DNA of 32,865 bases from Cytophagales bacterium (GTDB taxonomy: Bacteria; Bacteroidota; Bacteroidia; Cytophagales; Spirosomataceae), in the NCBI GenBank assembly GCA_013298865.1, contig JAAFJL010000044.1, positions 1-32,865 on the forward strand, read 5' to 3'. The notes beneath the pieces were generated by a model that ran no database searches, had not been told where the DNA came from, and saw only the letters and a list, made by a program, of their open reading frames with translations. Position numbers and translations under genes: made by a program. Below are positions 1 to 32,865 of this stretch, piece after piece. Position 1 is the first letter of the stretch. Every line of letters starts with the position of its first letter.

Positions 1-1
1 C

Positions 2-85
2 AATAATCTTGACTTTCGTGATAATATCTTTTGGATTGGATGTGGGTTACACAATCTTAGAATAAGACACAGAATCAAAACATAA
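2..85 (+). CDS. 3' end of a probable transposase (partial, cut by window edge)
   Basis: The first frame is open from the window edge and encodes about 27 residues before a TAA at 83-85. The tail contains FWIGCGLHNLRI. An H-N-L/F-R motif close to the C-terminus is typical of IS5/DDE_Tnp_4-like transposases, so this may be the end of an insertion sequence lying to the left. Only the tail is visible; the catalytic DDE residues are outside the window. It could also be another protein ending by chance in such residues. Confidence 0.4.
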   Translation, partial: NNLDFRDNIFWIGCGLHNLRIRHRIKT

Positions 86-123
86 AATCTCACAAGTTCC
101 AACAATTATCCTAATAAAGTTTA

Positions 124-1116
124 TTGAAAAAATCCTTCATCACCATGTTTTCAAACAAAAAAATCCGTCTTGTTTTCTTTTCTTTTTTGGTTTTCAATGG
201 AAAAAGTATCGCCCAGACAACTTCATTGACACAATTATTCTATCCAAATATCACTATCAAAGCCGATATTATGCCCGAAAGCGATTTTGGAAATGGTCAA
301 AAACTGGGCATCAATAGAACCACAGCACTCGGAATGATTCCATTAAGTACTGATATAAATGTAGGAATTGGCTTTGGAAAAAAGGCTGATATTCAGGCAA
401 GACACTCTTTGATTATTGCGAATGTAGCCCAAATCAATACAACAATTGATGGCAGAGAACAACCCGAAGGTGGCTACAAAACATTGGGGTTTACATACGT
501 TCAATTGAAAGCAAGTTTAAGGGAAAAGTTTTGGGTTTATGCAATCGGAGGAGGAATTACGCAATCAAATGAAACATTTTTCAATGCCCAACCTTACTTT
601 TATGGCGGTGCGGCAAGGTTAAGAATTTTAGGACTTAAAACTCAAATTCTTTACGGAACAGCCATTATTTATAGTCAAAAATTTAGGGTAATTCCAGTAT
701 TTGGTTTTACAAAATCACTTGGAGATGACTGGAAAGTTTCTGGGATATTGCCATTTAGAGCAAGTTTGACTTATAAATCTAACAAATGGCTTCATTTTGA
801 TTTTAATAGTATCTATGACGGTTATAGTGCTGGTTATCAGGAGTTTATTGCCACTGAAAAGCAAATCAAGCGACAAAATTTTCAGCAAGTAAGATTTAGT
901 TTATCTGCCAATGCACATTTATTGAACGTCTTTAATATTGGAATTGAAGGTGGAGTTGGTACTTTCAGACAAATGAAAACTTTTAATTCTGCTAATGAAA
1001 ATACAAAAACCACTGACCTACCAATTGCTCCATATTTGGGCGTAAGTCTGAGATATATCACAACAAAATCTAATGTTTCTTCAAAGTTTTTGAGGGGTAC
1101 AGGAATTGGGTTGTGA
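124..1116 (+). CDS. Secreted, probably outer-membrane beta-barrel-like protein of unknown function
   Basis: I do not recognise a named family. The N-terminus has basic residues, a hydrophobic stretch and a likely signal-peptidase site after SIAQ. The remainder is rich in alternating aromatic/aliphatic and Gly/Asn residues, as in outer-membrane barrel proteins of Bacteroidota (for example short runs such as YAIGGG, YFYGGAARL and GVSLRYIT). The first possible start is TTG at 124; an in-frame ATG at 145 keeps the complete signal peptide and is an equally good start. The gene is convergent with the thioredoxin-fold gene, with a 50-bp gap and no obvious terminator. The product may be a porin-like or assembly-related barrel; the role is unknown. 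Confidence 0.7.
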   Translation: MKKSFITMFSNKKIRLVFFSFLVFNGKSIAQTTSLTQLFYPNITIKADIMPESDFGNGQKLGINRTTALGMIPLSTDINVGIGFGKKADIQARHSLIIANVAQINTTIDGREQPEGGYKTLGFTYVQLKASLREKFWVYAIGGGITQSNETFFNAQPYFYGGAARLRILGLKTQILYGTAIIYSQKFRVIPVFGFTKSLGDDWKVSGILPFRASLTYKSNKWLHFDFNSIYDGYSAGYQEFIATEKQIKRQNFQQVRFSLSANAHLLNVFNIGIEGGVGTFRQMKTFNSANENTKTTDLPIAPYLGVSLRYITTKSNVSSKFLRGTGIGL

Positions 1117-1166
1117 GTTTTAGAGTTTACTTTGGCTAATATCAATAATCGTAATCGGTTTGGTGT

Positions 1167-2432
1167 TTATTTTCCCAAACGGGCATTGATTTTTACTAAC
1201 AATGCCTTAATATCAGTGGTGTCGCCTTTGATTTGGTCAGATAAAAATATTGTTTTTTCAGCATAAGTTTTAGCCAAATTCATATCATCACCAATTTTGA
1301 AAAGTAGATTAGCAACCGTATCGTTATTGTAGGGTTCTGAACTTTTTTCGACAGATAGAATCCCCCATTTAAGAGCTTGTTTCAATAACTCTTTGTCATC
1401 AGATTTTTCAAAAAACCCCCAAGCATATTGATTTAATTCAACTGCCGAAATGTCTTTGTCTAAACTCATAAGCTGGTTGACTAAACTTATATATTCAGCA
1501 TTGAATGTCTTTTCATTCTGAAAACCATAAATTTTGTATTTCAAAATAATGAGTTTTGTCTCTTCTTCACTGAATTCTTTTTTGAGATTTGTTTCTAATT
1601 TGGCGTTATCAATTTTCTGAGTTTTTGCATCTAATGATTTATTAAAACAATCATTTCGTTTGACATCAAAGATAAATCGTTTCGCATTCATGTTATAGTT
1701 CATCTTTAAATAAGACTCAAAATCTTTTTCATGATTTTTAACGTAATCGAACTCTTTTGAATCCTTTTTCCAAGCAACGTAAATGACAAATTGCTGATTT
1801 TCTTCCAAACTCCAATTGGATTGTGTAGCAAGATATTCTTTACAAACCTTGGCTGTTAAAATATTGTCATCAAATGATTGAATCAAGAAATTGACAAATA
1901 GTTTTAAAAATGCTGGAGATTTCTCACCTTTTTCATATCTCTTTTTCAAGTTGCTTGATTGAGTTTCAGGATTTAATCCTGCATTTATTTGTTCAATCAA
2001 TTGAGTATCTTCTATATTTCCGCCGCCCACTATTCTGTGAACCAACTCACCTTTTGGATTAAAAATTAACATCGTTGGATAAGCTCTAACAAAATAATCT
2101 TTTTCAAATTTTTCCGATAAACCATAATTATTCTTTACAGACTCTTCGTCTTTGGGTGTTCTATCCATTTGCAGTTTGAAGGCAACGAGATTTTTTGTAA
2201 AAAACTCTCCTGTCTTTTCAGAGGCAAATGCCCCTTTATCGAGCATTTTACATGGACCACACCAAGTGGTAAAACAATCAACAAAAATGTGTTTATTTTC
2301 TTTCTGAGCTTTTGTTACAATTTGTTCCCAAGAAGAATTCTTTTCAAATTGAATTCCTTTTTCATTACTTGTTTGTGCAAAAGCGAATATTGAAATAAAT
2401 AGGAATGAGGTAATAAGAATGGCGTTTTTCAT
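1167..2432 (-). CDS. Secreted thioredoxin-fold protein
   Basis: 421 residues with a signal peptide ending at FAQ (about residue 20). A thioredoxin domain follows, with the redox motif WCGPC (Cys58, Cys61) in the context VDCFTTWCGPCKML and a cis-Pro region AYPTMLIFNPKGE. Such domains reduce or isomerise disulfides in the periplasm. The C-terminal 250 residues are mostly helical, Lys/Glu-rich and unfamiliar; they could be a TPR-like binding domain and contain a further Cys (NDCFNKS). The gene is longer than a classical thioredoxin and resembles the long thioredoxin-family proteins common in Bacteroidota. Monocistronic by position; its substrate is not visible. Confidence 0.85.
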   Translation of the reverse strand: MKNAILITSFLFISIFAFAQTSNEKGIQFEKNSSWEQIVTKAQKENKHIFVDCFTTWCGPCKMLDKGAFASEKTGEFFTKNLVAFKLQMDRTPKDEESVKNNYGLSEKFEKDYFVRAYPTMLIFNPKGELVHRIVGGGNIEDTQLIEQINAGLNPETQSSNLKKRYEKGEKSPAFLKLFVNFLIQSFDDNILTAKVCKEYLATQSNWSLEENQQFVIYVAWKKDSKEFDYVKNHEKDFESYLKMNYNMNAKRFIFDVKRNDCFNKSLDAKTQKIDNAKLETNLKKEFSEEETKLIILKYKIYGFQNEKTFNAEYISLVNQLMSLDKDISAVELNQYAWGFFEKSDDKELLKQALKWGILSVEKSSEPYNNDTVANLLFKIGDDMNLAKTYAEKTIFLSDQIKGDTTDIKALLVKINARLGK

Positions 2433-2556
2433 GTTGCTTTTGTTTGAAGGTAAATGGAAGTACTTATTTGTATAACTAACGGAAATACAAAATCTTTGGT
2501 ATTATGATTCATAGTGTTTAACTGTATTTAACAAGTGGAAGAGATTTAAGGTGTAA

Positions 2557-3300
2557 CTATCTCATCCTTAAAACATTATCACAAATAATAGCGGTTGCAA
2601 TTCCTGCATTCAGCGACTCTGCTTGTCCAAATCTTGGAATTGTAATTCGCTTGGAAACTAACTTTTCAACTGCTTCCGAAATTCCATTGGCTTCGTTTCC
2701 AATGACAATTAATCCTGCTTTTTCAAAATTTGTATGATGAACATTTTCTCCATCGAGCAAAGCACCATAGACGGGTAAAGTGCTTTTTTGTAAGAAATTA
2801 ATTAGCTCTGTATAAAAAATATTCACCCTCGTGAATGACCCCATTGTGGCAGAAATTACTTTAGGATTATAAAAATCTACGGTGTCTTTTGAACAAATAA
2901 TCTTGTCTATCCCGTACCAATCAGCGATTCTGATAATTGTTCCAAGGTTGCCAGGGTCACGAATATCATCTAAAACCAAGGCATATTCATTGTTTCCAAC
3001 CAATATTTCCTGATTAGCTTTCGTTCTGACAACGGCGATGGCAGCATTGTTCGTCGAAAAACTTCCTGCTTGTTCCAAATCGGTATCTTTTACAATTTCA
3101 GCCTTAATTGGTTGTTTGTCTAAGATAGCTTGACTTTCTTTGTAAAAATCATCGGTTACATAAAGAAATTCAATCTCAAAATCAGATTGTAAAACTTCAA
3201 GCACACTTTTTGCCCCTTCTACAACAAAAGCCTGATTTTCAATCCTAAACTTTTTTTGTTGAAGAGATTTAATATATTTAATTTGATTTTTGGAAAGCAT
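2557..3300 (-). CDS. TrmH/SpoU-family RNA 2'-O-methyltransferase
   Basis: 247 residues. The N-terminus (MLSKNQIKYIKSLQQKKFR) is the short substrate-binding domain typical of TrmH/RlmB-like proteins. The SPOUT domain follows with its three motifs: DIRDPGNLGTIIRIA, VIGNEANGIS and IPRFGQAESLNAGIATAI, which form the knotted SAM-binding site. The family transfers methyl to ribose 2'-O in rRNA or tRNA; the exact target cannot be read from sequence. The start codon lies only bases from the divergent tamL start, so the promoter of this gene must sit inside the 5' part of tamL. Confidence 0.9.
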   Translation of the reverse strand: MLSKNQIKYIKSLQQKKFRIENQAFVVEGAKSVLEVLQSDFEIEFLYVTDDFYKESQAILDKQPIKAEIVKDTDLEQAGSFSTNNAAIAVVRTKANQEILVGNNEYALVLDDIRDPGNLGTIIRIADWYGIDKIICSKDTVDFYNPKVISATMGSFTRVNIFYTELINFLQKSTLPVYGALLDGENVHHTNFEKAGLIVIGNEANGISEAVEKLVSKRITIPRFGQAESLNAGIATAIICDNVLRMR

Positions 3301-5839
3301 ATTTATAACTCATTATTTTTTGAAATACTTTTTATACATAATTCTTTTATTTTTACTACTGTCGTCAGTAGCTTGCTCGCCCAAGTTATCAGGGAATGCC
3401 CCTTTGTTGTATTCACAGTCAGTAAGCGGCAATAAATTAATTAGTTCTGAGCGTCTGGAGGCACTTTTGCCACAAAAACCAAATCGGAAAATTCTGAAAC
3501 TGCCCTTTACACCTTGGGTAAGTTTATACCAAAGCCAACTACATAAAATCCCAAAATGGGAAAAACAAATCGTTGAAATTGATAGTGTTTTCTTGGCAAA
3601 AACTAAATCTTTAGATACTATTTCACAAGCGTACAAAAAACTTTTTGCAAAAAAAGAAAAGAAGATTCAACGACTCAATCAAAAATTAACCGATGGTAAT
3701 TTTAGAATGAAACTTGGTGAACTACCCGTCTATTTTTATGAAAGAGATGCACAAAATAACGTTGAAAAAATACGTCTTTTCCTACGGAACAGAGGGTTCT
3801 TCAATGCAAAGGTAAGTTATAAAATACGCCCACAATTGAGTTTAAGCTCTATTTCAAAAAAGTTTTTTAGCAAGAAAAAGGAAAAATATAGCAACGACAC
3901 ATCTATTGTTGGTGCAAAGAATGTGATTGTAACATATATAGTCAATGAAGGAAATGGTTACGTAATTTCAAAAAATGATTCAGTGGTTGTGGCTGATAGA
4001 ACAATTCGAGAAATTCTAAAGACGCATCAAGACAAAAGTCTTCTGAAAATTAATGAATATTTTGACGTTGACAACCAAAATGCTGAGAAGGTTAGAATTG
4101 AAAAGCTATTGAAAGACAATGGATATTTCCTTTTCACGAAAGAAGCCATCAGGATGCTTGTAGATGACCGTGATACTACAAAACGCCACGCTGTAAAAAT
4201 TATCACCAATATACCTTCTAAAGATTACGGAATAAAAAATCCGCTATACAGTAAAATATTCCCACTCAATACCGTCAGAATGGTCATTGATGGGTCTTCG
4301 CCAATGATTGAATCTCCTGTGGTTGATACTGTAAAAACCAATGGAGTAGAGTATATTTTTGTTAATAAAAAATATTCCACCAAATTATTAGATACAAAAA
4401 TTTCAATTCGTCCAGACGGTGTTTACAGTTCTCAGAAAGTCACAGACACCCAAAAACGGCTTTATAATTTAGACCAATTCAAGTTCACAAACGTCAATTT
4501 TGATACCACAAGAGGGTCTCTTAACACAACAATTTATACTGTCCCATTGGACAAATATAACCTTGGAGTTGAATTTGGGGCAAGTGTTTTCCAACTTGTC
4601 CCTGGTCCATTTGCGAATTTTTCATTGAAAGTTAGAAATATTTTGGGCGGATTAGAATCCTTAGAAACCAATATTCGTGCAGGTTATGAGGCACAATTGG
4701 GCTTTTTACAGACCAATACAGTTAGACAAAATGTGGATTTAAGTTTTTCTACATCTCTGATTTTTCCGCAAATGTTAATCCCAAGAAAATGGGCTTCTAT
4801 TTTTGAGAATTATACACCAAAATCTCTAATCGGACTGGGTATTAGCTACGTAGATAGGCAGGAGTTTAAACTGCTTAATTTCCGTTCTTCATTAACTTAT
4901 TCGTGGAAACTATCTAATTATCAGTCATTTAATGTGTCGCTTTTAGATTTAAACCTAATTCAAACCCCAGATAAAACAAGCGAGTTTAATAGTTATCTTG
5001 ATGACCAAAGAAAGATTGGAAATAACATTTTTATCAACTTTAATCCTTCTTTTGTATCAAGTGTAAGTGGCTGGTATATTTATGATGACAATATCCTAAG
5101 ACAAAATAAAACCTCTAAATATTTTAGAATTTTATTAGAATCAGGTGGAACAACACTGAATTTTATTCCAAATAACAGGATTGGCTTCTTGGACAAAATA
5201 TTTGTTGGTAATATTGATTCGCTTCAATTTTATCGGTTCTTGAAATTCAATGTTGATTATAGAATTTATAGGTCAATCTCTAAAAATTCGATGTTTGCCT
5301 TGCGTCTTAACACAGGAATTGCATACGCTTATGACAAAAGCGGGGTTTTGCCTTATGAAAAAAACTTCTTTGTTGGTGGACCAAATAGTATTCGTGCATG
5401 GCGACCAAGACGTTTGGGGGCAGGGTCTTTTGCTGGAAATACAGATTATAGATTTGAACAACCTGGTAGTATTTTGTTAGAAGCAAGTGCCGAATACCGT
5501 TTTAAATTATTCCATTTTTTAGGAGATTTTAACGGGGCATTATTTGTTGATGCAGGCAATGTCTGGACACTCAAAAACCAAAGTGGTGCAGATTTAGGTT
5601 CTACTGATTTTGCATTAGATAAATTTCTTGGAGAAATCGCTATTGGTACAGGAATGGGCTTACGCCTTGATTTTAAGTACTTTGTCATTCGTTTAGATGC
5701 TGGTGTAAAAGTAATTGACCCCTCAAATCCCAAAGGAAAACGCTACGTTTTAAATAAATTCAATTTATATCGGGATGGCACCGCTCCACAAGCTCCTTTT
5801 TTACCCGTACTCAATATCGGAATCGGGTATCCGTTTTGA
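3290..5839 (+). CDS. tamL: TamL-type outer-membrane lipoprotein of the Omp85 (BamA/TamA) family
   Basis: 849 residues from a TTG at 3290; a second TTG at 3320 (MKYFLYII...) leaves the signal peptide intact and avoids overlap with the divergent methyltransferase. The lipobox SSVAC places the lipidated Cys at residue 29, a feature of Bacteroidota TamL rather than classical TamA. POTRA-like repeats occupy roughly residues 140-420 (for example RLFLRNRGFFNAKVSYKI). The C-terminal half is an Omp85 barrel containing GGPNSIRAWRPRRLGAGS, the counterpart of the conserved VRGF/Y loop, and it ends in an aromatic residue (GIGYPF). The family works with inner-membrane TamB in envelope biogenesis; no tamB is adjacent here. 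Confidence 0.88.
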   Translation: MESIFITHYFLKYFLYIILLFLLLSSVACSPKLSGNAPLLYSQSVSGNKLISSERLEALLPQKPNRKILKLPFTPWVSLYQSQLHKIPKWEKQIVEIDSVFLAKTKSLDTISQAYKKLFAKKEKKIQRLNQKLTDGNFRMKLGELPVYFYERDAQNNVEKIRLFLRNRGFFNAKVSYKIRPQLSLSSISKKFFSKKKEKYSNDTSIVGAKNVIVTYIVNEGNGYVISKNDSVVVADRTIREILKTHQDKSLLKINEYFDVDNQNAEKVRIEKLLKDNGYFLFTKEAIRMLVDDRDTTKRHAVKIITNIPSKDYGIKNPLYSKIFPLNTVRMVIDGSSPMIESPVVDTVKTNGVEYIFVNKKYSTKLLDTKISIRPDGVYSSQKVTDTQKRLYNLDQFKFTNVNFDTTRGSLNTTIYTVPLDKYNLGVEFGASVFQLVPGPFANFSLKVRNILGGLESLETNIRAGYEAQLGFLQTNTVRQNVDLSFSTSLIFPQMLIPRKWASIFENYTPKSLIGLGISYVDRQEFKLLNFRSSLTYSWKLSNYQSFNVSLLDLNLIQTPDKTSEFNSYLDDQRKIGNNIFINFNPSFVSSVSGWYIYDDNILRQNKTSKYFRILLESGGTTLNFIPNNRIGFLDKIFVGNIDSLQFYRFLKFNVDYRIYRSISKNSMFALRLNTGIAYAYDKSGVLPYEKNFFVGGPNSIRAWRPRRLGAGSFAGNTDYRFEQPGSILLEASAEYRFKLFHFLGDFNGALFVDAGNVWTLKNQSGADLGSTDFALDKFLGEIAIGTGMGLRLDFKYFVIRLDAGVKVIDPSNPKGKRYVLNKFNLYRDGTAPQAPFLPVLNIGIGYPF

Positions 5840-27009: not shown

Positions 27010-27570
27010 ATGCCCGAAATTAAATTATCTGATGCTGAAATATTAACAAAGTTTTCTGTTGATGAAACTAAAAATTTTGCATTTAATCAACTGGTAAATA
27101 TTTATCAGCAGAAAGTGTATTGGCATATTCGTAAAATGGTGATTGACCATGATGATGCAGATGATTTAACGCAAGAAACGTTTATAAAAGCATGGAAAAA
27201 CTTAGATAATTTCAAAGGTGAATCTCAACTTTTCACTTGGCTTTATAGAATTGCTACCAACGAATGCTTAAATCATTTAGCAAAAAAGAAGCGACGTTTT
27301 TTCTTACCAATCAACGATATAACCGAAGAATTATCCAATAAAATTGATGATTCAGTTTTGATTTCAGGAGAAGAAATACAATTAAAATTACAAAAAGCAG
27401 TACTCACCCTTCCAGACAAACAACGGTTAGTTTTTAACATGAAATATTACGATGAAATGAAGTATGAAGAAATCGCTGAAATTACAGGTACATCAGTCGG
27501 GGCATTGAAAGCATCATATCATTTAGCCGTAAAAAAGGTTGAAGAATTTCTTAAAAAGGATACATTTTAA
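27010..27570 (+). CDS. ECF-type RNA polymerase sigma factor (module 1)
   Basis: 186 residues with only regions sigma2 and sigma4. Sigma2 contains DADDLTQETFIKAWKNLDNFKG and FTWLYRIATNECLNHL. Sigma4 contains LPDKQRLVFNMKYYDEMKYEEIAEITGTSVGALKAS. Such factors direct polymerase to envelope-stress or uptake genes when released from an anti-sigma partner. The likely partner is the single-TM protein encoded 98 bp downstream. Promoter not recognised; unlike module 2, no CGCAAG/ACATCTAA motif precedes it. Confidence 0.92.
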   Translation: MPEIKLSDAEILTKFSVDETKNFAFNQLVNIYQQKVYWHIRKMVIDHDDADDLTQETFIKAWKNLDNFKGESQLFTWLYRIATNECLNHLAKKKRRFFLPINDITEELSNKIDDSVLISGEEIQLKLQKAVLTLPDKQRLVFNMKYYDEMKYEEIAEITGTSVGALKASYHLAVKKVEEFLKKDTF

Positions 27571-27668
27571 TTAAACCTTTTTCTGAAAATTAAATCAAAG
27601 AACTGTTCTTGATACAATCCACAAAAGCTAACATAAATCGTTTTAACGAATTATGCAGTAATATTAAA

Positions 27669-28106
27669 ATGAAAAAAGAAGAGATAAATTTAGAAAAATT
27701 ACCCAAAGAAAATGTTTTCAAAATACCAGATAACTATTTTGAAAATCTATCCGAGAAAATAGCAAGCCGTGTTTCTGAGGACAGCAAAGTTATTTCTCTC
27801 AGAAAATGGTCACCAAAATATACTTTGCTTGCTATTGCGGCATCCTCGGCAATTGCAGTTATGGGTTTCTTTTGGGTAAATTCACAGCAAGATAAAAATG
27901 AAAATGTTGCATTGTCAGGCGTGAGTCAGCAAGAGATTGTCAACTATTTGATTCAAGAAAATATGTCTCAAAGCGAAGTTACTGAGCATTTTGAAAACAC
28001 TAATTTATTGAAGATAAAAGACACTGATTTATTGGATAATCTAAAAGTTAGCGATAAAGAAATTTTACAAAGTGTTGATTTAGAGAGCGTTGAAGAGGAA
28101 ATTTAG
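27669..28106 (+). CDS. Single-TM protein, putative anti-sigma factor (module 1)
   Basis: 145 residues from ATG 27669; an in-frame TTG at 27609 would add 20 unfamiliar residues. The cytoplasmic N-terminus has KENVFKIPDNYFENLSEKIASRV, a segment often seen in proteins encoded next to Bacteroidota ECF sigma genes. One transmembrane helix follows (LLAIAASSAIAVMGFFWV), then an acidic extracytoplasmic tail. This layout suits an anti-sigma factor, but no zinc-binding ZAS motif (HxxxCxxC) is present, so the role is inferred. Confidence 0.7.
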   Translation: MKKEEINLEKLPKENVFKIPDNYFENLSEKIASRVSEDSKVISLRKWSPKYTLLAIAASSAIAVMGFFWVNSQQDKNENVALSGVSQQEIVNYLIQENMSQSEVTEHFENTNLLKIKDTDLLDNLKVSDKEILQSVDLESVEEEI

Positions 28107-28149
28107 CGTTATTGTTACCAAATTTATTATTACATTTAATTTTAAAAAA

Positions 28150-28605
28150 ATGAAAAAAACAACCATTTTAATTATCATTTTAACCATTGCTTTTACTGCA
28201 AGTTTAAAAGCACAAGATGATTTTCCGAGAGCTAAAGAAAAAATCAGAGCCGCAAAAGTTGGCTTAATAACGAGTCGTTTGAATTTAACCGAAGACCAAG
28301 CCAAAACTTTCTGGGTTGTTTATGAAGAATTTGATAAAAAACGAGCAGAAATTAGAAAGAATATTCGTGAAATGACAGCCGAAAGTAGAAATATTACTAC
28401 TACTGATGACAAAATTTTGGCAGATATTAAAGAAGTTTTGAGTTTAAAACAAAAAGAAGTTGACTTAGAAAAAGAATATTTGTCTAAATTTTTAAAGACT
28501 ATCAACGTTCGTCAACTTTCTGAATTATTTAAAACTGAGCAATTATTTAATCAAATGCTGGTGAAAAAATTGAATAAAAAAGGTGATAAATTTGACAAAG
28601 AGTAA
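28150..28605 (+). CDS. Spy/CpxP-like periplasmic protein (module 1)
   Basis: 151 residues from ATG 28150. The longer frame from 28090 overlaps the preceding gene and lacks a signal sequence at its start. A signal peptide ends at LKAQ (about residue 22). The mature protein is helical and charged, with the LTxxQ-type motif LNLTEDQAKTFWVVYEEFDKKRAEIR and a later QKEVDLEKEYLSKFLKTI. Spy/CpxP-like proteins act as ATP-independent chaperones or metal/stress sensors in the periplasm. The gene ends module 1 and is followed by a terminator. Confidence 0.75.
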   Translation: MKKTTILIIILTIAFTASLKAQDDFPRAKEKIRAAKVGLITSRLNLTEDQAKTFWVVYEEFDKKRAEIRKNIREMTAESRNITTTDDKILADIKEVLSLKQKEVDLEKEYLSKFLKTINVRQLSELFKTEQLFNQMLVKKLNKKGDKFDKE

Positions 28606-28629
28606 TTTGTTTTCAGGATGGATTTTAAG

Positions 28630-28660
28630 AAACCTCTCTAAAATTTAGGGAGGTTTTTTT
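28630..28660 (+). terminator. Intrinsic terminator after module 1
   Basis: Arms AAACCTCTCTA (28630-28640) and TAGGGAGGTTT (28646-28656) pair with one wobble, followed by seven T. It stands 24 bp after the Spy-like gene. Confidence 0.8.
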
Positions 28661-28666
28661 ATTTTT

Positions 28667-28833
28667 GGAATTATATACTATTTGGCGGGTTATAAAAAAA
28701 CCTCTCCCCCAGCCCCTCTCCTGCTGAGAGGGGAGCATTTATGGACGAATTTCTCCCTTCTCAGCAGGAGAGGGGTCGGGGGAGAGGTTTTTCTAAGTCA
28801 AACACATCTGTCCGCCAAATAGTATATAATTCC
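28667..28833. mobile_element. 167-bp MITE-like element with 22-bp perfect inverted ends and a nested palindrome
   Basis: The 22 bp at 28667-28688 (core TATATACTATTTGGCGG) recur as an exact reverse complement at 28812-28833. Inside, 28696-28726 and 28761-28792 form a second long hairpin built from CCTCTCCCCC-AG-CCCCTCTCCTGCTGA and its complement, with two mismatches. The inner G+C-rich part differs strongly in base composition from the A+T-rich ends, as if one repeat had inserted in another. No ORF is present. Confidence 0.75.
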
Positions 28834-28862: not shown

Positions 28863-28891
28863 CGCAAGTTTTATTTTTATTTTACATCTAA
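28863..28891 (+). promoter_or_regulatory. Candidate ECF-sigma promoter (CGCAAGTTTT-N11-ACATCTAA) of module 2
   Basis: This 29-nt segment is identical at 25 of 29 positions, without gaps, to 30341-30369 upstream of the first YHYH gene. It ends 29 bp before the sigma factor ATG. CGCAAG is a plausible -35 and ACATCTAA a plausible -10. Autoregulation of the sigma gene is inferred. Confidence 0.55.
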
Positions 28892-28920
28892 GTAATTGAA
28901 TTCGAGATGTTTCCCAATAA

Positions 28921-29496
28921 ATGACCGAACAAGAACTACTATTTAGATTACAGTCTGGTGATGAATCAGCCTTTAAGACTTTAGTTGAAACCCACCAAAA
29001 GCGGGTTTTCAATACTGTCTTGGCGATTGTGCAGGATTTTGAGGAGGCAGAAGATGTATCGCAGGAAGTTTTTATGGAGGTTTATCAGTCGGTAAAAAAG
29101 TTTAGAGGAGATTCAAAAATTTCGACTTGGTTGTATAGAATTGCTACTACAAAGGCTTTAGAGGAAATTCGTAAAAAGAAAGCTGCTAAACGATTCTCTT
29201 TTTTTACGAGTTTATTTGGAGATAGTAATGAGGTTCTTCACGAATCCGCTGATTTTGTACATCCAGGAGTGGTTCTGGAACAACAAGAAAATGCAAAAGT
29301 ATTATTTAAGGCTATCAATCAATTGCCTGAAAATCAAAAAGTTGCTTATACTTTGAGTAATATTGAGGGGTTGAGTTATCAGGAAATTACGGAGGTGATG
29401 GAAGTTTCATTGTCATCGGTAGAATCACTTTTATTTAGAGCAAAAACAAATTTAAAAAAGTCATTAGGAGATTACTATAAAAATCACTTTGTATGA
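28921..29496 (+). CDS. ECF-type RNA polymerase sigma factor (module 2)
   Basis: 191 residues. Sigma2: VQDFEEAEDVSQEVFMEVYQSVKKFRGDSKISTWLYRIATTKALEEI. Sigma4: INQLPENQKVAYTLSNIEGLSYQEITEVMEVSLSSVESLLFRAKTNLKK. It is a paralogue of the module 1 factor but clearly diverged, so the two probably read different promoters. It is preceded by a motif shared with the YHYH operon and overlaps the next gene by 4 bp (ATGA), indicating coupling with its probable anti-sigma factor. Confidence 0.93.
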   Translation: MTEQELLFRLQSGDESAFKTLVETHQKRVFNTVLAIVQDFEEAEDVSQEVFMEVYQSVKKFRGDSKISTWLYRIATTKALEEIRKKKAAKRFSFFTSLFGDSNEVLHESADFVHPGVVLEQQENAKVLFKAINQLPENQKVAYTLSNIEGLSYQEITEVMEVSLSSVESLLFRAKTNLKKSLGDYYKNHFV

Positions 29497-29789
29497 AAAA
29501 TTCTCACGACATAGAACAAAAAGTTGAGGAAACTTTGAATGCACTGGACGGAATGGAACAAGCCGAACCCAAACCGTTTTATTATACCCGTTTGAAGGCA
29601 AGAATGGAGAGAGAATTGTTGCAACCAAAAACTGTTTTAGGTTGGACTTTTAAACCAATTTATGCCTACGCTTCCTTAGCTTTGGTTTTAACAATAAATA
29701 TTTTTACGATTGTTACCCTCAATAATAAAAGTAATCAGCCTCCCAAGGATGTGCAAACATACAGTTTGTACGACCCTAATGGTTTGTAA
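29493..29789 (+). CDS. Small single-TM protein, putative anti-sigma factor (module 2)
   Basis: 98 residues. A cytoplasmic N-terminus (EQKVEETLNALDGMEQAEPKPFYYTRLKARMERE) is followed by one membrane helix (IYAYASLALVLTINIFTIVTL) and a short Asn/Pro-rich tail. The 4-bp overlap with the sigma gene and the cytoplasmic helix before the membrane segment are typical for membrane-bound anti-sigma factors. No zinc motif is present. It is shorter than its module 1 counterpart, which has a longer extracytoplasmic tail. Confidence 0.7.
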   Translation: MKNSHDIEQKVEETLNALDGMEQAEPKPFYYTRLKARMERELLQPKTVLGWTFKPIYAYASLALVLTINIFTIVTLNNKSNQPPKDVQTYSLYDPNGL

Positions 29790-29800
29790 ATGATAAAGTT

Positions 29801-30277
29801 ATGAACGAACAAAATAAATTCAGAAATCTTTGGTTTGCTATTATGAGCCTCTTTTTGCTTAATATAGGCACATTAAGCTGGATGTTTTTCAAAAATCAAG
29901 GGCATGAACCGCCAATTGGTCCTGTTATTATTGAAGAAGCACTAAGGTTTGATAACAAACAATTATCAGATTTTAAACCTTTGATGAAAAAGCACTTTGA
30001 AACTGTTATTCCTTTGAGAAAAGCTATCCAACAAGATAAAGATTCTCTTTTTGATTGGTTGAAGTCGGGTGGCAATGATTCTATATCTTTTAACAATCAT
30101 TTAGCCTCAATGTCTGCCAAAGTGATTGAAAATGAGAAAAATACTTTCTTGCATTTTAAAGAAATTAGAGATTTATGCACACCTGAACAGAAAAAGTATT
30201 TTGACGAAGTACTGATTGAGAAATTCAAACACCATAACGATAAAAAAAGTCCACCACCTCCAAGGGATTCAAAATAA
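29801..30277 (+). CDS. Membrane-anchored Spy/CnrX-like stress protein (module 2)
   Basis: 158 residues. An uncleaved N-terminal helix (LWFAIMSLFLLNIGTLSWMFF) anchors a helical periplasmic domain with the LTxxQ-type ending LCTPEQKKYFDEVLIEKFKHH and charged helices before it. This resembles the periplasmic heavy-metal sensor/Spy group. The His-rich tail (KHHND) and Met residues might bind metal, but that is a guess. Lying 11 bp after the anti-sigma candidate, it probably senses the envelope signal that controls the sigma factor. Confidence 0.72.
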   Translation: MNEQNKFRNLWFAIMSLFLLNIGTLSWMFFKNQGHEPPIGPVIIEEALRFDNKQLSDFKPLMKKHFETVIPLRKAIQQDKDSLFDWLKSGGNDSISFNNHLASMSAKVIENEKNTFLHFKEIRDLCTPEQKKYFDEVLIEKFKHHNDKKSPPPPRDSK

Positions 30278-30282
30278 AGAGT

Positions 30283-30322
30283 AAAAAAAAGGCGATTTCA
30301 CGAAATGAAATCGCCTTTTTTT
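30283..30322. terminator. Strong terminator after module 2
   Basis: A-run plus GGCGATTTCA (to 30300), loop CGAAA, then TGAAATCGCC and a T-run to 30322. The stem is perfect and symmetrical, so it may work in both directions. It separates module 2 from the YHYH operon, which must then have its own promoter. Confidence 0.92.
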
Positions 30323-30340
30323 ATTTTTTTTCAAACTGAC

Positions 30341-30369
30341 CGCAAGTTTTCTTTTTGCTTAACATCTAA
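30341..30369 (+). promoter_or_regulatory. Candidate ECF-sigma promoter of the YHYH operon
   Basis: CGCAAGTTTT and ACATCTAA stand at exactly the same spacing (11 nt) as in 28863-28891 upstream of the module 2 sigma gene. The segment lies just after the module 2 terminator and ~130 bp before the YHYH start, leaving a long 5' leader. Confidence 0.55.
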
Positions 30370-30413: not shown

Positions 30414-30427
30414 ATACAATATTGTAT
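30414..30427. promoter_or_regulatory. 14-bp perfect palindrome in the YHYH leader
   Basis: ATACAATATTGTAT is its own reverse complement. It lies between the candidate promoter and the leader hairpin and could be an operator for a dimeric regulator. Low complexity makes a chance origin possible. Confidence 0.3.
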
Positions 30428-30437
30428 TTTAGACTTA

Positions 30438-30481
30438 GTCACTGGAATTCAATAATGGATGAACTTTTAAATTCCAGTGAC
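30438..30481 (+). promoter_or_regulatory. Leader hairpin upstream of the first YHYH gene
   Basis: GTCACTGGAATT (30438-30449) and AATTCCAGTGAC (30470-30481) are perfectly complementary with a 20-nt loop, ending 17 bp before the ATG. The stem lies inside the expected 5' UTR and may affect translation or stability. It has no T-run, so it is not a normal terminator. Confidence 0.55.
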
Positions 30482-30498
30482 TTAAACAAATAGAAAAC

Positions 30499-31362
30499 AT
30501 GAAGAAGCTAATTTTTGCAACTGTAATTATTTTAGGAATTGGAGCAATTGCTTGTAAAGAAGAAACACTTAGACCTAATCCTTCTGGAGGAAATACTGTA
30601 CCGAGTGGCACAGTTGGTACTGGAACAAATACTGGTACAACATCAGGGAGTTCTGGTTCAACAACAACTACTACTACTGCAACAGATTATAGTTCGATAG
30701 TTCAAAAAGCCTTTTCTGGCTATGGAGCTGCAAGTGTAAGTTCTGTAACGGTTGATGGTGATTATGTTGTGATAAAATGTACAGGTGTGCCAGACCATAA
30801 AAGCCCCTATTTTAAAAATTCGACTTGGGAAAGTTCTATGTATGTTGCCGACACAAGAAGCACTTTTAAGCAAGCCCCAGGTAGTTATGTTGCCGCATTT
30901 AACTATACTTTCAGAATCCCGAAAGCTCCAAAAGAATCATCTTCCAAAAAATCATTGGGTACGGCAACCATAGGAATAGCCCTGAATGGCGTGCCACTCT
31001 TCAATCAATATGCTGCTGGGAATACTGCTATCTCGGTTGGAACGGGAGAATATGTTTCATTTGATTTGTACGGTGGACACCCTGCCCCTTCACTTGATTA
31101 TCACTATCATATTGAACCCAATTTTATTACTACTGCCAAAGGTTCTGATGCTTTAATTGGGTATTTATTGGATGGTTTTCCAGTATATGGTTCAAAAGAA
31201 AATGGCAAGACGGTAACTTCTTCAAGTTTGGATGCCTATCATGGTCATACGGCTGTAACGAAGGAATATCCAAACGGAATTTATCATTATCATACTACTG
31301 CCGATGCACCGTTTATCAACGGAAACGGATTTTTCGGAACGGCTGGGACTTGGACAAAATAA
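30499..31362 (+). CDS. YHYH-domain lipoprotein, copy 1
   Basis: 287 residues. A lipoprotein signal peptide ends at AIAC (Cys19). A Gly/Ser/Thr-rich linker with a run of Thr spans about residues 26-62. The YHYH domain follows, with GGHPAPSLDYHYHIEPN, LIGYLLDGFPVYGSKENG, DAYHGHTAVTKEYPNGIYHYHTT and a terminal GFFGTAGTW. The clustered His-x-His pairs look suited to bind metal, but no function is established for the family. It is closely similar to the next gene (roughly three quarters identical over the domain), differing mainly by the longer linker. It lies behind a candidate ECF promoter. Confidence 0.88.
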   Translation: MKKLIFATVIILGIGAIACKEETLRPNPSGGNTVPSGTVGTGTNTGTTSGSSGSTTTTTTATDYSSIVQKAFSGYGAASVSSVTVDGDYVVIKCTGVPDHKSPYFKNSTWESSMYVADTRSTFKQAPGSYVAAFNYTFRIPKAPKESSSKKSLGTATIGIALNGVPLFNQYAAGNTAISVGTGEYVSFDLYGGHPAPSLDYHYHIEPNFITTAKGSDALIGYLLDGFPVYGSKENGKTVTSSSLDAYHGHTAVTKEYPNGIYHYHTTADAPFINGNGFFGTAGTWTK

Positions 31363-31375
31363 TTTTTTTATAAAA

Positions 31376-31451
31376 AAGTGGTTTTATCAAACATTGGAAA
31401 CTGTTTCGAAATAAAACCCTGCGTATAATCCCTTGTGGGTTATACGCTTTT
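31376..31451 (+). repeat. 76-nt two-stem intergenic element, copy 1
   Basis: It is identical to 32284-32359 except at two positions. Stem 1 is GGTTTTAT/ATAAAACC with a ~23-nt loop. Stem 2 is GCGTATAATCCC-TTGT-GGGTTATACGC, with one bulged base, followed by TTTT. The second stem plus T-run looks like a weak terminator or attenuator between genes of the same operon. The position after a paralogous gene in both cases shows that it was duplicated together with the gene. Confidence 0.75.
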
Positions 31452-31473
31452 CAAATTTAAAATTAAAAACAAC

Positions 31474-32265
31474 ATGAAAAATTATACAATAATTTTATTC
31501 GCTTTCGTATTTACGATTACTTTTTCTTGTGAAAAAGACCAGACAAATCCTTCGACTACAGGTACAGGAGTAACAACTACTGCAACAGATTATAGTGCGG
31601 TAGTTCAAAAAGCATTTACGACTTATGGAGCAAAAAATGTAAGTTCTGTTACGGTGGACGGAGATTATATTTTAATCAAAACGAATGGTGTTCCTGAACA
31701 CAAAAGCCCTTACTTCAAAGGTTCAACTTGGGAATCTACTTTGTATGTAGCTGATACCAGAAGCGAGTTCAAACAAGCTCCAGGAAGTTATATCTCAGCG
31801 ATAAGCTATACTTTCAAAATACCCAAAGCACCCGTTGAGTCATCTTCCAAAAAATCATTAGGTACTGCCACTATTGGCGTAGCCTTAAACGGAGTGCCAA
31901 TTTTTAATCAATATGCTGCTGGTAATACGGTTATTACAGTCGGGGCAGGAGAATATGTTTCTTTCGATTTATATGGTGGACACCCATCACCTAATCTTGA
32001 TTATCACTATCATGTAGAACCAAATTATATTACTGCCAATAAAGGCTCAGATGCCTTAGTGGGCTATTTGTTAGATGGATTCCCAGTTTATGGACCGAAA
32101 GAAAATGGTAAAACTTTGGTGAGTACAGATTTGGATGCTTATCATGGACATACAGCTAAAACTGCTGAATATCCAAGCGGAATTTATCACTATCATACAA
32201 CGGCTGATGCCCCTTTTATTAATGGAAATGGATTCTATGGAACGGCTGGTACTTGGACTAAATAG
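31474..32265 (+). CDS. YHYH-domain lipoprotein, copy 2
   Basis: 263 residues from ATG 31474. A GTG 13 codons upstream lies inside the preceding hairpin and would spoil the lipoprotein signal (TFSC, Cys19), so it was not chosen. The linker is short (about residues 20-35). The YHYH domain matches copy 1 closely: GGHPSPNLDYHYHVEPN, LVGYLLDGFPVYGPKENG, DAYHGHTAKTAEYPSGIYHYHTT and GFYGTAGTW. All His pairs are conserved in both copies, implying that they matter. A recent tandem duplication is likely. Confidence 0.88.
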   Translation: MKNYTIILFAFVFTITFSCEKDQTNPSTTGTGVTTTATDYSAVVQKAFTTYGAKNVSSVTVDGDYILIKTNGVPEHKSPYFKGSTWESTLYVADTRSEFKQAPGSYISAISYTFKIPKAPVESSSKKSLGTATIGVALNGVPIFNQYAAGNTVITVGAGEYVSFDLYGGHPSPNLDYHYHVEPNYITANKGSDALVGYLLDGFPVYGPKENGKTLVSTDLDAYHGHTAKTAEYPSGIYHYHTTADAPFINGNGFYGTAGTWTK

Positions 32266-32283
32266 TTATAATTCAATAAAAGA

Positions 32284-32359
32284 AAGTGGTTTTATTAAAC
32301 ATTGGGAACTGTTTCGAAATAAAACCCTGCGTATAATCCCTTGTGGGTTATACGCTTTT
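32284..32359 (+). repeat. 76-nt two-stem intergenic element, copy 2
   Basis: Second copy of the element at 31376-31451, with two substitutions, both in the stem 1 loop, so the stems are unchanged. It stands between YHYH copy 2 and the surface-protein gene, 22 bp before that ATG. Confidence 0.75.
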
Positions 32360-32381
32360 AATATTTAAAACACACAAGATT

Positions 32382-32865
32382 ATGAATTTTAAACCACTAT
32401 TTACTTTGGTAGCCATTTCATTTTTTGCTACTCAATCTTTTGCCCAATTTGGCTTTAATTCTACTGGGGCAACACCCGATAACTCGGCGATGGTGGATAT
32501 TTCAAGTGATTCAAAAGGTGTACTTGTGCCAAGAATGACCACTACGCAAAGGACAGCTATTGCAAGCCCTGCCACTGGTTTATTGGTTTTTGATAGCGAT
32601 TTAAAGGCTTTTTATTATTATGATGGCACTGTTTGGACAGCTATAAATAGTGGAACTCTTGCAGAATCTGACCCCAAAATAGGTACATTAACAACTTCTT
32701 ACTTACCACGTTGGAATGGCTCAACCTTAGCAAATTCAGCCATTTATGACAACACTGGTACAAGAATAAGCATAGGTACTACCACCATTTCACCTGAATC
32801 TAAATTGGCATTGGGGGCTATTTCATCAACCGAAGGTGGACAATTGCAACTTAATGGTAGTTCCT
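32382..32865 (+). CDS. Secreted surface/tail-fibre-like protein (5' part, cut by window edge)
   Basis: An open frame from ATG 32382 to the window end (161 codons, no stop). The signal peptide is MNFKPLFTLVAISFFATQSFAQ. The mature start (GATPDNSAMVDISSDSKGVLVPRMTTTQ, then RTAIASPATGLLVFDSDLKAFYYYDGTVW) is the repeat-like head common to large Bacteroidota surface proteins, which often end in tail-fibre or sorting domains. The C-terminus is outside the window. It follows the YHYH genes in the same direction and may belong to their operon. Confidence 0.75.
   Translation, partial: MNFKPLFTLVAISFFATQSFAQFGFNSTGATPDNSAMVDISSDSKGVLVPRMTTTQRTAIASPATGLLVFDSDLKAFYYYDGTVWTAINSGTLAESDPKIGTLTTSYLPRWNGSTLANSAIYDNTGTRISIGTTTISPESKLALGAISSTEGGQLQLNGSS

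Follow-up and report, generated by a model that had tools for sequence, protein, structure and literature searches.

The window analysed here, 32,865 nucleotides (nt) long, is an entire contig (JAAFJL010000044.1; C242 in our numbering, in which genomes, contigs and loci carry G, C and L numbers) from the assembly of a Cytophagales bacterium of the family Spirosomataceae (G000; 5,693,385 bases in 302 contigs, 94% complete). It carries a three-gene unit, referred to as module 2, encoding an extracytoplasmic function (ECF) sigma factor, a putative anti-sigma factor and a CnrX-type envelope sensor, followed by two genes for predicted YHYH lipoproteins, YHYH1 and YHYH2 (Table 1). A 29-nt motif, CGCAAGTTTT-N11-ACATCTAA, stands before each of these units, at 28863-28891 and 30341-30369; the 2 copies align without gaps and are identical at 25 of 29 positions, differing at 4. 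Direct comparison and shuffling bore out the preliminary description, which had reported this pair: allowing up to 3 mismatches, the window contains 2 matches versus 0.04 expected, and none of 100 shuffles reaches 2. Its statement that each copy begins a unit after a palindrome or terminator also holds, with motif 1 lying behind a hairpin and a palindrome and motif 2 behind a hairpin. The hairpin at 30284-30322 separates the 2 units, and a new promoter behind it therefore makes sense. Judging from sequence comparisons, both copies are very probably the −35/−10 promoter read by the module-2 ECF sigma factor (28921-29496); copy 1 is predicted to drive all three module-2 genes and copy 2 the YHYH lipoprotein gene.

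Table 1. Features of the module 2 and YHYH region, in window coordinates.
Feature	Position	Strand	Remarks
Terminator-like hairpin ending upstream module 1	28627..28659	+	
Palindrome between module 1 and motif 1	28693..28795	.	48-nt arms, 88% complementary
Motif copy 1, predicted ECF promoter of sigma/anti-sigma/sensor genes	28863..28891	+	Starts 58 nt before sigma start codon
ECF sigma factor, 191 amino acids (aa)	28921..29496	+	Sigma70_r2, Sigma70_r4_2
Putative anti-sigma factor, 98 aa	29493..29789	+	One membrane helix by eye; role inferred from position
CnrX-type envelope sensor, 158 aa	29801..30277	+	N-terminal helix, then CnrX-kind helices
Strong terminator-like hairpin between sensor gene and motif 2	30284..30322	+	17-18 pairs
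Motif copy 2, predicted ECF promoter of YHYH gene	30341..30369	+	Starts 158 nt before YHYH start codon
YHYH1, predicted lipoprotein, 287 aa	30499..31362	+	Pfam YHYH
YHYH2, tandem duplicate, 263 aa	31474..32265	+	Without own motif; terminator-like hairpin before YHYH2
Terminator-like hairpin ending YHYH2 duplication unit	32329..32355	+	

Zero-mismatch copies in the assembly are confined to the window pair. A refined pattern, CGCARGTTT-N13-CATCTAA, searched with up to 2 mismatches, finds 10 places in the whole assembly, 7 within reading frames and 3 upstream of a gene start; the latter are the 2 window copies and C31:1907-1935, which has 1 mismatch and precedes a MORN-SCO gene pair. The reversed pattern, used as a control, also yields 8 matches at this tolerance, and weak matches therefore carry no weight. 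The whole-genome scan proposed in the preliminary description thus showed that near-exact copies are not strewn independently of gene starts.

Across 222 genomes of the family, the refined pattern has 46 exact matches in 26 genomes, versus 2 matches in 2 genomes for its reversed form, and 45 of the 46 lie directly upstream of a gene on the same strand. The first same-strand gene encodes a sigma factor of the module-2 group in 24 cases, a YHYH protein in 9, a di-haem cytochrome peroxidase (CCP_MauG) in 5 and a PepSY-like protein in 4, with single occurrences of a multicopper oxidase, a 138-aa secreted protein following the sensor and a VTC-domain protein; one match (in G034) has no such gene. 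The match at L110 was assigned to the sigma gene by hand, a spurious opposite frame and the distance limit having masked it, and the sigma gene in G191 is truncated. Pfam names of motif-bearing genes come from a run of nine proteins. The exact motif before the di-haem cytochrome c peroxidase gene, at L087, L091, L102, L115 and L117 (Pfam checked for L087 only), lies on a contig other than that of the sigma gene, as does the one before the VTC-domain gene at L113 (G169:C340, 1033-1913), an unexpected possible target. In G198 (L119) the multicopper oxidase gene comes first behind the motif, and the run of genes with the sigma factor at L092 includes a similar protein.

The occurrence of the motif follows that of the module-2 sigma factor. 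Homologues of the latter (E ≤ 1e-40) are present in 78 of the 222 genomes, a count in which absences are not absolute, since only the best 14 candidates were scored in many genomes; they occur in 24 of the 26 motif genomes versus 54 of the 196 others (Fisher test, 1.5e-10, with relatedness ignored). The 2 motif genomes with no homologue at the cut-off are G034 and G191, and in G191 the motif precedes the truncated sigma frame (L116). The proposal in the preliminary description that the module-2 sigma factor recognises the motif and that the YHYH genes are its targets thereby gains strong support from comparative genomics, in that the motif tracks the sigma factor and YHYH genes carry the motif.

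The association extends beyond the family. Among the relatives of the sigma factor, we examined 80 named loci (the best 80 of 529), which by their record names belong to Cytophagales genera, Saprospiraceae, Chitinophagaceae, Roseivirga, Flavobacteriaceae, Ignavibacteria and one Candidatus Edwardsbacteria. A search with no pattern given in advance, run on the upstream regions of 79 of these sigma genes, returned GTTTT-N14-TCTAA as the most frequent spaced word pair (19 of 79 regions; maximum of 7 in 20 shuffles), and this pair is part of the window motif. Best scores of at least 13 of the 16 pattern positions were reached in 32 of the 79 sigma upstream regions versus none of 79 in each of three controls. 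Over the 80 whole loci, 77 sites scoring at least 14 of 16 lie on the sigma strand versus 0 on the opposite strand, and 200 column-shuffled patterns gave a mean of 0.27 sites and a maximum of 4. Each of the 77 is followed within 320 nt by the start of a mechanically called same-strand reading frame or occupies the sigma-upstream position. Both blocks are fixed even in distant groups, whereas the spacer and flanks diverge.

Between −300 and +1000 of the sigma start, 48 such sites in 45 of the 80 loci fall into 2 position groups: 25 sites lie ahead of the sigma gene, at a distance of 43-108 nt, and 23 lie at +540 to +593 from the sigma start, at the sigma/anti-sigma junction. The predicted sigma promoter is present, for instance, in Arcicella aurantiaca DSM 22214 (L128). 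Both positions are occupied in a few loci, for example L148 and L152. A junction site in place of the sigma-upstream site is seen at L145, L150, L151, L165, L168, L170, L173, L200 and L204, among others. In such junction-only loci, transcription from the predicted promoter would take in the anti-sigma and sensor genes but leave out the sigma gene, and would provide negative feedback only.

YHYH1 and YHYH2 match the Pfam YHYH model (PF14240) at 88.9 and 86.2 bits, respectively, with a gathering cut-off of 25, and in an alignment of 22 sequences Cys19 and several His and Asp residues are invariant. In a number of relatives, a second motif copy precedes YHYH at the position it has in the window (e.g., L126, L127, L131, L134, L173 and L192) or stands before a PepSY-like gene; Emticicia sp. 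BO119 (L132) has one motif ahead of the sigma gene and another ahead of a PepSY-like gene, behind which YHYH lies. At L088, L092, L093, L094, L114 and L118 YHYH directly follows the sensor gene and has no motif of its own. The motif also occurs at YHYH genes away from the sigma gene, at a distance of 94 kb in G033 (15 of 16 positions) and on another contig in G014 (15 of 16) and G169 (exact). Conversely, YHYH genes in five sigma-less genomes had no motif match, the best site reaching 9 or 10 of 16. Within a locus, the 2 sites tend to depart from the consensus in the same way, doing so at 18 of 50 deviating positions, compared with a mean of 4.7 and a maximum of 12 under permutation (22 loci, 5000 permutations, relatedness not fully controlled). 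Among 23 loci, for which flanks of about 1.5 kb were available and some were ended by contig ends, the genes after YHYH include a MORN-type gene (MORN_2) in 17 and SCO1/SenC in 16, the latter including 4 of the 5 sigma-less genomes.

The term YHYH operon, used in the preliminary description, holds in part: motif 2 does precede YHYH1, but a terminator-like hairpin stands between YHYH1 and YHYH2. The 2 genes form a tandem duplication of about 905 nt (30670-32386), the unit of which includes its own terminator-like hairpin. The leader of YHYH1 (30419-30500) contains a 47-nt palindromic insert that the closest relatives, L126 and L127, lack in otherwise similar leaders, for which reason the leader hairpin was dropped as a candidate RNA element. 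Contig C31 (positions 1-3310; L124) may continue the window: its first gene resembles the gene cut at the window's end, and it carries a third YHYH gene, the 15/16 motif, MORN and SCO1/SenC.

At the sequence level, the sigma operon and other genes are thus preceded by the same two-block motif, which is conserved with the sigma factor, the arrangement by which an autoregulated ECF regulon would be recognised. Several observations nevertheless weigh against this assignment. YHYH2 has no motif and is preceded by a hairpin, and the third YHYH gene, on C31, has no upstream motif either (best 12 of 16), the near-match lying after that gene and before MORN-SCO. In genomes that possess the sigma factor, YHYH genes with no close match are found in G010 (10 of 16 at both copies), G028 (second copy, 9), G050 (11) and G021 (10-12), and the YHYH proteins of G033, G014 and G169 are divergent, being 31-37% identical to YHYH1. 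The exact match in G034 occurs with neither the sigma factor nor a nearby same-strand gene. The exact pattern is missing from 54 of the 78 genomes with a sigma homologue, and from 18 of 42 even when the homologue scores at least 205 bits. Finally, 35 of the 80 named loci have no site of at least 14 of 16 between −300 and +1000; the more distant sigma factors either read an altered motif or belong to another group.

The module-2 sigma factor matches only Sigma70_r2, Sigma70_r4-type and Sigma70_ECF models, as a two-domain ECF protein comprising regions 2 and 4 with no region 3. Its closest solved relatives are entries named sigma-H, which we take to be AlgU, sigma-E and SigW. The name CnrH does not appear among the 14 solved sequences matching it at E ≤ 1e-15, which is an indirect test. 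The putative anti-sigma factor had no Pfam or NCBIfam match, and a profile of 17 sequences matched no solved chain at E ≤ 1. Anti-sigma classes are described as highly divergent in a study which states that class I anti-sigma domains are associated with only 6% of ECF sigma factors in Bacteroidetes, a figure that fits an anti-sigma factor of another type at the window locus (PMC7406223).

The sensor matches NccX (9.8e-9) and CnrX (5.7e-8) in sequence and, more weakly, Spy (2.1e-5 and weaker). Searches with its predicted structure (mean predicted local distance difference test score, pLDDT, 85) return CnrX among the best fold matches, with a template modelling score by target of up to 0.80 and a Foldseek E of 0.013 or weaker; the first-ranked match is a Salmonella VirG-like protein chain (Foldseek E 0.0059), and CpxP and ZraP match more weakly. 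His118 is shared by all 17 sensor sequences compared, and His65 and Cys126 by nearly all. The metal ligands of CnrX, His42, His46, Glu63, His119 and Met123 (the number 119 being derived from the title of the M123A structure entry), can be compared with these positions: that of His119 is kept as His118, that of Met123 is Ile in the window, and neither of the N-terminal His positions is His. Of the three conserved residues, His118 alone falls on a known ligand position.

On the reading that module 2 controls the YHYH genes, the anti-sigma factor would hold the sigma factor at the membrane until the CnrX-type sensor bound its signal in the envelope and the sigma factor was released. RNA polymerase with the sigma factor would then start at both motifs, the regulators would rise, and the envelope would be filled with YHYH, SCO1/SenC and related proteins handling copper or redox stress. 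SCO1/SenC proteins handle copper, and from the presence of their genes after YHYH in 16 of 23 loci we infer copper or redox control of the envelope. Together with the CnrX-type sensor and the multicopper oxidase, these neighbours make copper the leading candidate signal, with redox or envelope stress as the main alternative; copper is favoured, at somewhat less than even confidence.

The evidence for copper as the signal is indirect, and several points weigh against this step in particular. The CnrX metal ligands are mostly unconserved in the sensor. The predicted structure of YHYH1 is of low confidence (mean pLDDT 70) and had no credible match in the PDB (best Foldseek E 0.46), and a profile search with YHYH1 gave three weak, chance-like matches only. 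An analysis of jumbo phages predicts that the YHYH domain of tail proteins has a zinc site built from three His residues and one Asp, and that it acts as a metal-dependent (zinc) hydrolase (PMC7824862), which fits metal binding and not necessarily copper handling. The other papers found to mention YHYH name it in phage baseplates, where it is presumed to serve host recognition, and once in a list. Literature searches found no relevant work on YHYH and copper, and nothing on the module-2 sigma/YHYH system or on ECF sigma factors, copper, Bacteroidetes and multicopper oxidase combined.

The same wiring could serve a non-metal signal, namely envelope or oxidative stress arising from misfolded proteins, peroxide or respiratory failure, with the sensor acting like Spy, CpxP or ZraP. 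This is possible, and a serious contender. The Spy matches and the weaker CpxP and ZraP fold matches agree with it, as do the sigma-E and SigW type entries nearest to the sigma factor and the di-haem peroxidases among the motif-bearing genes (5 of 46). Against these stand the best sequence matches of the sensor, which are the metal sensors NccX and CnrX, its one invariant His, one nearly invariant His and one nearly invariant Cys, and the SCO1/SenC genes and motif-bearing multicopper oxidase, which point to copper.

Directly upstream of module 2 lies module 1 (27010-28605), which encodes a second ECF sigma factor (27010-27570), a putative anti-sigma factor and an LTXXQ protein. The palindrome separating it from motif 1 (28693-28795) has the size of a small mobile or repetitive extragenic palindromic (REP)-like element. 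Were the motif read by another factor, above all the module-1 sigma factor or a DNA-binding regulator, the module-2 sigma gene would be merely a target. The position of module 1, which is repeated in several relatives, and the presence of its sigma factor in all 26 motif genomes would accord with such a scheme, which is nonetheless improbable. The module-1 sigma factor occurs in 180 of the 222 genomes, a spread that does not explain the distribution of a motif found in 26, 24 of which have the module-2 sigma factor, and it was rejected as the reader of the motif on these counts. Moreover, module 1 is missing from the 1 kb upstream of the motif in many motif loci, and 2 short blocks at fixed spacing, 43-108 nt upstream of the sigma start at 25 sites, are promoter-like rather than operator-like.

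Recognition by the housekeeping sigma factor was also rejected, sigma-70-type matches in the region numbering 21 versus 21.8 in shuffles. The housekeeping promoter of Bacteroidota is of the type TAnnTTTG; this sequence does not occur in the interval from either motif to the start codon behind it (TACTTTG, one base short, follows motif 2), and the paired form TTTG-N17-23-TAnnTTTG has one match in the window, which lies elsewhere and on the opposite strand. That the 2 copies are a dispersed repeat or a recent duplication with no regulatory function is very improbable, although the region is rich in repeats (the tandem YHYH duplication and the palindromes): the genome holds two exact copies only, the blocks stay fixed while spacer and flanks diverge, and the sites are placed on the same strand before genes; chance origin or a repeat was rejected on the 46 versus 2 reversed matches, the strand bias of 77 versus 0 and the two exact copies.

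The assignment of the motif to the module-2 sigma factor invites comparison with CnrH of Cupriavidus metallidurans, for which two studies describe the promoters cnrYp before the regulators and cnrCp before the effectors (PMC9045368, PMC4803752). Like CnrYXH/CnrCBA, the window has a three-gene regulatory module with a CnrX-type membrane-anchored sensor, and one predicted sigma promoter precedes the regulatory genes and another the effector genes just downstream, as with cnrYp and cnrCp. In contrast to CnrYXH (CnrH, CnrY, CnrX), the order in the window is sigma, anti-sigma, sensor, the sigma factor is closest to the sigma-H, sigma-E and SigW entries, and only the His119 position of the CnrX ligands is clearly kept; unlike the CnrCBA effectors, no resistance-nodulation-division (RND) efflux pump was seen among the motif-bearing genes, that is, the first genes after the 46 matches. 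The window module therefore resembles the CnrYXH plan but is not filed as a member, as its sigma group, ligands and effectors differ. It shares with the RpoE (sigma-E) type the sigma sequence and predicted autoregulation, whereas its core, CGCAAGTTT / CATCTAA, is distinct and its sensor is CnrX-like. Its −35 block, of the GNAANTT kind, and its −10 block, TCTAA, are about 15 nt apart and resemble the Escherichia coli sigma-E promoter. As for the YHYH proteins, the invariant His and Asp agree with the zinc site that has been predicted for the domain in tail proteins of jumbo phages (PMC7824862). The proteins described here differ from those of the phage tails: they are bacterial, are predicted to be lipoproteins, have a predicted regulator and lie in a steady MORN_2-SCO1/SenC neighbourhood.

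Beyond what the preliminary description contained, the analysis adds the pair of a putative anti-sigma factor and a CnrX-type sensor, a wider set of motif-bearing genes and an alternative promoter position at the sigma/anti-sigma junction. For one ECF sigma group it yields a promoter, defined at the sequence level, with which genomes from Cytophagales to Ignavibacteria can be scanned. The little-studied bacterial YHYH proteins, which are histidine-rich and predicted to be surface lipoproteins, are thereby given a predicted regulator and partner genes. The CnrX-type sensor is here paired with other likely effectors, and has other likely metal ligands, than in Cupriavidus. We tentatively suggest that the system may be an ancient copper-sensing sigma system common to Bacteroidota and neighbouring phyla, combining a CnrX-type sensor with an RpoE-type sigma factor, in which the core effectors would be the YHYH lipoproteins, acting as histidine-rich proteins that carry copper in the envelope in concert with SCO1/SenC and multicopper oxidase.

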